From a virus, in IMG/VR virus record IMGVR_UViG_3300001325_000006, positions 1-20,607 of that record: a DNA stretch of 20,607 nucleotides; one strand, written 5' to 3'. The notes below the pieces were generated by a model. It did no database searches. It had not been told where the DNA came from and worked only from the letters and a program-made list of their open reading frames with translations. Below are positions 8,882 to 9,547 of the stretch, piece after piece. Every line of letters starts with the position of its first letter. Positions within the stretch are counted from its first letter, which is position 1. The translations under genes were made by a program, and so were the position numbers.

Positions 8882-9373
8882 CTATTTGACCTTCTTGACA
8901 ACTTTGGCAGCCACCTTCGGCGGAGGGGTCGATATCGGAGCCGGATCCACGAGCCCGCTGTCAAGCACCGCGAGATAGCGAACGATGTCGGTTTCATCTA
9001 CGCTCTTTTGCGCAGGACTGATGCGGAAGGGCTCGGCTCTTGGACCATCGGGACCCATCTTCTTGAGCCGCTCGCGCATGCTCATCGCGCCATCGGGAAG
9101 ATGCTCCTTGAGTGACACCCGCGAGAGATAGATTGTCCGAAGGGAAGAACTGGCCTTCGTCGAATTGTGGGCGACGGAGAAGGGGAACCAGGGCTTTAGG
9201 TCATCGAGCAGCCATTTCACTCTCTCGGCCTTGAATACCTTCAGATCCAAGAAGGTCGAAAGGTCCGCGCGCTCGACTGCTATGCAATCAAGACCCCTGA
9301 TCCATGCTTGTACGGCCAGGAAGTGACCGAGCACTCGATGTTGGCGACGACACGCGTCACGATGTGATTTCAT
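8882..9373 (-). CDS. Minus-strand protein of unknown function
   Basis: A 163-residue protein on the strand opposite to all secure neighbours. ATG at 9371-9373 has AGGAGA a few bases upstream on the minus strand, and the frame has a natural, soluble composition. Visible parts: an N-terminal Cys/His/Arg-rich helix, a helical middle (VKWLLDDLKPWFPFSVAHN), a basic segment around 96-112 and a Pro/Lys tail (PPPKVAAKVVKKVK) likely disordered. No family is recognised. It converges on the preceding operon with one base between stops. Its isolation, own promoter region and lower GC resemble a 'moron', an extra gene carried by a prophage and expressed on its own. Any function, such as exclusion or host modification, would be speculation. 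Confidence 0.75.
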   Translation of the reverse strand: MKSHRDACRRQHRVLGHFLAVQAWIRGLDCIAVERADLSTFLDLKVFKAERVKWLLDDLKPWFPFSVAHNSTKASSSLRTIYLSRVSLKEHLPDGAMSMRERLKKMGPDGPRAEPFRISPAQKSVDETDIVRYLAVLDSGLVDPAPISTPPPKVAAKVVKKVK

Positions 9374-9385
9374 AAGTCTCCTATG

Positions 9386-9456
9386 TCAGTGGGCGCCATG
9401 ACGATAGGCGCTACCATCGAATATCGGGGCAATATGTGATTTCTAAACCCCACTGA
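9386..9456. repeat. 8-bp inverted repeat in the intergenic region
   Basis: TCAGTGGG (9386-9393) and its reverse complement CCCACTGA (9449-9456) flank the possible minus promoter. A second, shorter inverted pair GGCGC/GCGCC lies inside (about 9392-9412). These could be operator half-sites or chance. The whole gap 9374-9547 holds no gene. I see no convincing plus-strand promoter in it, though one would be expected for the lysis operon. Confidence 0.3.
9420..9447 (-). promoter_or_regulatory. Possible promoter for the minus-strand gene
   Basis: Read on the minus strand, TTTAGA (9442-9447) and GATATT (9420-9425) are 16 bases apart, each matching four of six sigma-70 consensus positions. They lie about 50-75 bases upstream of the start of the 163-residue protein. 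The match is weak and found by eye. Confidence 0.28.
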
Positions 9457-9547
9457 GGGAGGGCCAAACTGAGCTTTGCGGAGTCGCGAGGCTCGAATAG
9501 TTCCCCACCCAATACCATCGTCTCATTCCTAACCGAGTGAGGCGATC

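Follow-up and report, generated by a model that had tools for sequence, protein, structure and literature searches.

The minus-strand gene of IMG/VR record IMGVR_UViG_3300001325_000006 analysed here is very probably a piece of exchangeable accessory cargo, housed in a slot between the early and lysis operons in which related phages carry quite different genes. The window (the whole 20,607-nt stretch, positions 1 to 20,607 of that record) is probably a phage fragment of 20,607 bases, and no integrase was found in the parts of it that were examined. The gene order runs from DNA methyltransferases through replication and recombination genes, a NinB-like gene and a wHTH gene to the cargo gene on the minus strand, followed by the holin, lysis genes, terminase and portal. 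The genes after the holin are putatively of lytic transglycosylase type and of a spanin region and, like the portal, were named by reading their translations; the holin is presumed to be the first gene of the lysis operon. The features of the site are as follows.

7991–8473, plus strand: NinB-like recombination gene, which belongs to the conserved flank and lies to the left of wHTH
8503–8880, plus strand: gene for a small wHTH-like protein, last of the early operon and left flank of the slot, present in each of the seven phages as well as in the Cupriavidus remnant, with an uncertain annotated start
8881–9491, no strand: exchangeable part of the slot, from the wHTH stop codon to the conserved holin leader
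8882–9373, minus strand: cargo gene, 163 amino acids, protein family undescribed
9492–9547, plus strand: holin leader, retained by phages that have the cargo gene and by those that lack it
9548–9838, plus strand: holin-family gene, right flank (phrog_1528, E 6.5e-7), 77–90% identical in the other six phages

These borders define an exchange slot with sharp edges in a phage group that includes at least two Cupriavidus prophages, and the slot holds an undescribed protein family. The tail-to-tail layout also makes it a testable proposition that a prophage silences its own cargo by read-through on induction.

The first-pass annotation had described a lone, well-formed minus-strand gene of 163 residues, and the open reading frame at 8882–9373 is indeed coding beyond chance by pN/pS and by identity at the codon positions. 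In comparison with the Cupriavidus homologue, pN is 0.27 and pS 0.80 (dS is saturated, dN 0.33), with identities of 69, 79 and 32% at the three codon positions. The start codon lines up in the alignment with the start of the homologue, and a GGAG-type ribosome-binding site lies upstream. As judged against the Cupriavidus copy, the cargo gene is a real protein-coding gene under purifying selection. The single base that separates its stop codon from that of the facing wHTH gene, and the 174-bp gap from its ATG to that of the holin at 9548, are both as first described. Its G+C content of 56.7% compares with 62.7–67.5% for the seven phage genes measured.

Seven distinct phages, the window included, were compared at this site. 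An IMG/VR search with the holin returned five phages, and a holin profile matched two of the 398 genomes from the family of the Cupriavidus genome (G347 and G302), both within the 60 genomes of the genus. The same profile matched none of 369 genomes at the level of the order, a set from which the positive control is absent, and a tblastn search for the holin in phages gave no match. One record (L109) contains all 14,288 bases of another (L102) with zero differences, and the two are therefore counted once. In all seven phages, NinB and wHTH genes lie on the left of the slot, and the holin, TerL and portal genes on the right. The cargo gene occupies the slot in two of the seven (the window and L105), a count that carries selection, as the window was given and the phage of L105 was first found through the cargo gene itself; among the phages reached only via the holin, it is present in none of five. 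The site had been read as that of a prophage moron, and the cargo part of this reading is upheld by the same flanks with and without the gene and by its lower G+C content. With presence in two of seven related phages, the comparison that the first-pass annotation had suggested, the gene is not a core member. The gene thus shows two defining features of a moron, presence or absence at a fixed site and an odd base composition.

The right border of the slot is marked by the resumption of DNA similarity to the window at 9492 in L102 and L105, at 9512 in L104 and at 9532 in L106. On the left, similarity to the window fades while still inside the wHTH gene, near its 3' end, at 8825 (L102), 8812 (L104) and 8797 (L106), and it is the closer pair of L104 and L102, whose matching segments are 88–97% identical, that places the border precisely at the wHTH stop codon. 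Between these two phages, identity is 92.8% up to one base beyond the wHTH stop and returns (88%) 36–37 nt before the holin, enclosing unrelated stretches of 1,180 nt in L104 and 723 nt in L102. This alignment shows a recent exchange at the slot. Seven breaks separate the pair in total, the slot break having the longest replaced segments; with six others present, the slot, though the largest, is not the sole place of exchange. The slot measures 0.6–1.2 kb in six of the seven phages and about 3.5 kb in the seventh.

The other occupants of the slot are varied. Three of these genes match candidate anti-phage families and are located as follows.

L106 6186–6902, minus strand: DUF4145 gene
L103 6187–7017, minus strand: DUF4145 gene, 45% identical to that of L106, with its true start probably at codon 36
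L104 5827–6936, early strand: RelA_SpoT-domain gene, matching PDC-S33 (E 8.7e-90), a candidate class in PADLOC

The DUF4145 genes thus account for two of the seven phages, and the plus-strand RelA_SpoT gene for one. The slot of L103 also has an AntA/ANT antirepressor gene and a small ORF, both on the plus strand, and that of L110 (one of seven) has a plus-strand P63C gene. The slot of L102 (6241–7000, 760 bp) shows no recognised gene and, by tblastn, no remnant of the other cargo genes. The DUF4145 genes match PADLOC PD-T7-4 weakly, at 20–22 bits (E 1.6e-5 for L103 and 7.9e-5 for L106). DUF4145 is a HEPN family, and PD-T7-4 is named among known systems, according to the respective reports (PMC3710099; PMC9519451). 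The neighbouring occupants of the slot therefore suggest, from their family matches, a leaning towards defence. The slot is not reserved for it, as P63C and AntA/ANT genes occur there too.

Several local observations accompany these occupants. In L110, a near-perfect palindrome of 36 nt (8237–8272) lies between the wHTH stop codon and the P63C gene. The cargo ends in L002, L103 and L110 share a terminator-like stretch of 20–23 nt, identical or nearly so, and this stretch might have aided the exchange of cassettes through homology. In L002, from a Cupriavidus genome, two overlapping genes at 10529–11967 (one for a 237-amino acid protein without a family, the other for a PIN_12 protein) separate the wHTH gene from the cargo gene. 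The pair looks like a toxin–antitoxin or defence pair; in PADLOC, the 237-amino acid gene has no match and the PIN gene matches only AbiEi, with E 0.018.

Cargo placed just upstream of lysis genes has a familiar counterpart in the stx genes of Stx phages, which sit between Q and the lysis genes, are encoded on the late strand and depend on the late promoter; the cargo gene shares this placement but is on the opposite strand. Fixed flanks with a high turnover of genes between them, the arrangement seen in this comparison of sequences, are also as in phage-borne antiviral hotspots. A known example is likewise confined to a short region flanked by two conserved phage genes, in which gene turnover is high and some of the genes are anti-phage; it lies beside cos, whereas the slot described here is between the early operon and the holin and its anti-phage content is putative. 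Comparable slots have been a source of anti-phage systems (PMC9122126), and we do not claim that the present one is unreported in print. Tab of Pseudomonas phage JBD26 is a moron that gives phage resistance (PMC10884400). It resembles the cargo gene in being a small single-gene moron but lies inside the late operon.

The full reading that we favour, with a probability of about 0.5, is that the cargo gene is expressed in the lysogen, hinders competing phages and is damped upon induction. At least two phages of the group reside as prophages in Cupriavidus genomes, and one phage carries an integrase. In the lysogen, the cargo gene would be transcribed from its own minus-strand start while neither the early nor the late operon is expressed, and the small, winged-helix-like protein would bind nucleic acid or a partner and thereby hinder competitors. 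Upon induction, transcription of the early operon would collide head-on with the cargo gene and lower its expression, which would spare the phage itself from harm. A benefit to the lysogen through phage exclusion or defence has, in our estimate, slightly less than an even chance; against it, the P63C and AntA/ANT occupants are not defence-like and the PD-T7-4 matches are weak.

Silencing of the cargo gene by convergent read-through is a more doubtful step, which we infer from the geometry of the layout. The distance from the wHTH stop codon to that of the minus-strand occupant directly against it is 1 nt in the window, −17 in L105 and 6 nt in L106, which leaves an intergenic terminator no room. 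Within the window, no terminator-like site was found on the plus strand over 8460–10249, nor on the minus strand at the end of the cargo gene. L103 provides a counter-example, its convergent pair being 53 nt apart and associated with a terminator-like stretch; with this spacing, and with two occupants on the plus strand, silencing by read-through is not general. Of the known cases found in which a prophage defence gene is switched by opposed transcription, the nearest is Tha/Ith of Staphylococcus aureus prophages, where a lysogeny-expressed gene is opposed by transcription of the other strand during the lytic cycle. Tha sits in the cI operon, is inhibited mainly by the protein Ith, and has a HEPN domain (PMC11087260). 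The slot shares the opposed-strand layout, and its DUF4145 occupants belong to the same HEPN superfamily as the domain described for Tha; unlike that case, the layout alone is seen here and the cargo gene lacks a detected HEPN domain. A literature search for prophage defence genes with an antisense or convergent layout gave no match.

An extended form of the same idea, in which the slot is a self-switching defence port whose minus-strand genes, placed tail-to-tail with the early operon, are on in lysogeny and turned off by read-through, and in which the cargo gene stands for a new family of anti-phage proteins that act singly and have a winged-helix-like domain, is quite unlikely. Against the reading that we favour, the phages are mosaic at several other places, and the cargo gene may serve a phage function within its own branch, as two phages and one remnant keep it beside the same wHTH gene.

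The cargo protein is an undescribed family by profile comparison, outside Pfam, PHROGs, NCBIfam and PADLOC. No match was returned by Pfam (E ≤ 5), PHROGs (E ≤ 1) or PADLOC (E ≤ 1), the last of which also gave none for the P63C gene, and NCBIfam gave a single sub-threshold match (E 0.11) that we take as noise, in agreement with the initial statement that no family could be recognised. Helix-turn-helix profiles were among those that the protein failed to match in Pfam and PHROGs at these thresholds, and no HEPN domain was matched in Pfam by either the cargo protein or its L095 relative. A sequence search of the PDB gave RNase P p40 as the best hit (E 0.0009–0.0017), and all hits were judged to be chance. 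Homology to the neighbouring wHTH gene was considered and none was seen (hhalign probability 0.2%).

The structure of the protein was modelled from an alignment of three sequences in five versions, which disagree and have mean pLDDT values of 72.6, 64.8, 49.5, 36.6 and 33.3; an earlier model from two rows (pLDDT 45) was left out of the fold search. The predicted fold is mixed alpha/beta. In the best model, with pLDDT of about 80 over residues 1–120, a helix (2–25) is followed by a strand (30–34), two helices (35–42 and 49–59) and two strands (67–70 and 78–84), after which come a short helix, another strand and a further helix; the tail, rich in lysine over residues 140–163, is modelled with low confidence. 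This helix–strand–helix–helix–strand–strand order suggests a winged-helix-like N-terminal part of about residues 1–86. No match in the fold searches reached E < 0.001, the best Foldseek values being 0.42 (PDB) and 0.049 (viral). The best VIA-align score, Z 5.7, was for an R3H domain, and chains of RepE, CtsR and Stn1, which we take to be winged-helix proteins, were found with Z up to 4.7 among unrelated folds. As these scores are within the range of common arrangements, a nucleic-acid-binding N-terminal domain is a lead and not a result. The N-terminus is basic and strongly conserved, and it includes RVLGH (residues 13–17), which we take to be an R3H-like RxxxH motif; residues 10–17 presumably correspond to a HEPN-like R-X6-H.

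The 174-bp gap upstream of the gene had been said to hold an 8-bp inverted repeat and a weak promoter. The repeat, TCAGTGGG/CCCACTGA, is present at 9386–9393 and 9449–9456 with a spacing of 55 nt, but when the gap was resampled 3,000 times under a first-order Markov model, 17% of the resamples had at least one 8-bp inverted repeat, and this one was not found in the gap of the relative when the two were aligned. Being at chance level and not conserved, it was ruled out as an operator. The promoter could not be substantiated: a scan of 7500–11000 gave no sites, and the best hexamer pair, TTTAGA-16-GATATT, was equalled in 35% of 150 shuffles. The best pairs for the two relatives and the two DUF4145 genes were equalled in 35–69% of shuffles, the region for L103 being taken from the start of the longest ORF, which is probably not the true start. 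No Rfam match was found over 7500–11500 at E ≤ 1.

The conserved element of the gap consists of the ~55 nt immediately preceding the holin (9492–9547), absent from the earlier description; outside this leader, the gap sequences of the window and L105 show no conservation. Within the leader, an 8-bp stem between 9518–9525 (TCGTCTCA) and 9538–9545 (TGAGGCGA) overlaps the ribosome-binding site of the holin. Over the seven phages, 92.9% of cells pair in this register, versus at most 54% when it is slid by 1–3 columns. One pair is seen as U-G, C-G and U-A and the others hardly vary. Shuffles equal the covariation and no pair is altered on both sides among the seven phages, and with so little variation the covariation carries no weight. 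The stem could delay translation of the holin or be an operator in the DNA.

The position and predicted fold of the cargo gene also invite other explanations. It could be a phage regulator, a winged-helix DNA-binding protein of the lysogen that represses the divergent lysis or late operon through the 174-bp gap. The order of secondary structure modelled for residues 2–84, the occurrence among the weak fold matches of the DNA-binding winged-helix proteins RepE and CtsR, and the start of the gene, which adjoins the holin leader and diverges from it, are all consistent with such a role. Five of the seven phages, however, have the same kind of holin leader without the cargo gene, so that the lysis operon does not need it, and with the lack of conservation elsewhere in the gap and the weakness of the fold matches we consider a regulator unlikely. 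It is likewise improbable that the gene is a host-modifying moron acting on metabolism, surface or stress with no anti-phage role: the slot does take the P63C gene of L110, which has no defence match, but no enzyme family was found for the cargo protein in Pfam or NCBIfam, no membrane segment is evident in its sequence, and other genes of the slot, those with DUF4145 and RelA_SpoT, do have matches among defence families.

An anti-defence or early lytic gene that simply sits on the opposite strand would suit a small protein with a basic, strongly conserved N-terminus. Such a gene would, in lytic growth, be transcribed against the early operon that it opposes, and this explanation is very unlikely.

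Only two full-length relatives of the cargo gene were found. One, with 62% identity, is in Cupriavidus sp. YR651 (L002 10001–10471), where the order is the same wHTH gene, the two-gene cassette with the PIN_12 protein, and then the cargo gene facing them; the holin profile search did not find the holin in this genome. The other, with 57–58% identity, is in a 58-kb phage record (L095/L105) that includes the integrase gene. In another genome of the genus (L005), the cargo gene is reduced to its C-terminal half. A profile of the gene matched eight of 398 family genomes (E ≤ 0.01), two of them credibly: G001, with the full copy, and G332, with the C-terminal remnant (E 1.9e-12). The other six (E 7e-4 to 8e-3) were judged to be chance; one of them, L008, was also seen by tblastn with E 2e-5 among 91 fetched loci. 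Four of the 60 genus genomes matched, the credible ones again being G001 and G332, and beyond the family the profile matched one of 399 genomes at the level of the order and one of 369 at that of the class, both of them G001.

A tblastn search of phages and plasmids with the cargo gene gave no match at E ≤ 1. Viral contigs yielded no relative with the cargo gene alone or its two-row profile, nor with the wHTH gene or its two-row profile; the three-row profile of the cargo gene recovered only the phage of L105 again. A survey of terminase relatives gave 406 loci, of which 80 were kept for comparison, and none of these 80 matches the cargo gene. The survey says little about the site, because many of the loci stop short of it, 76 of the 80 share only TerL with the window (E ≤ 1e-4; the other four share one gene more), and none of the five phages from the IMG/VR holin search is among them. 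Achromobacter phage CF418P1 was set aside as a comparable case, as its terminase and portal are related to those of the window but its early genes are different. In the comparable place it carries an unrelated minus-strand gene (L092 10906–11598), the product of which is putatively membrane-anchored; early genes accompanied by a tRNA-Val lie on one side of this gene and the terminase on the other.
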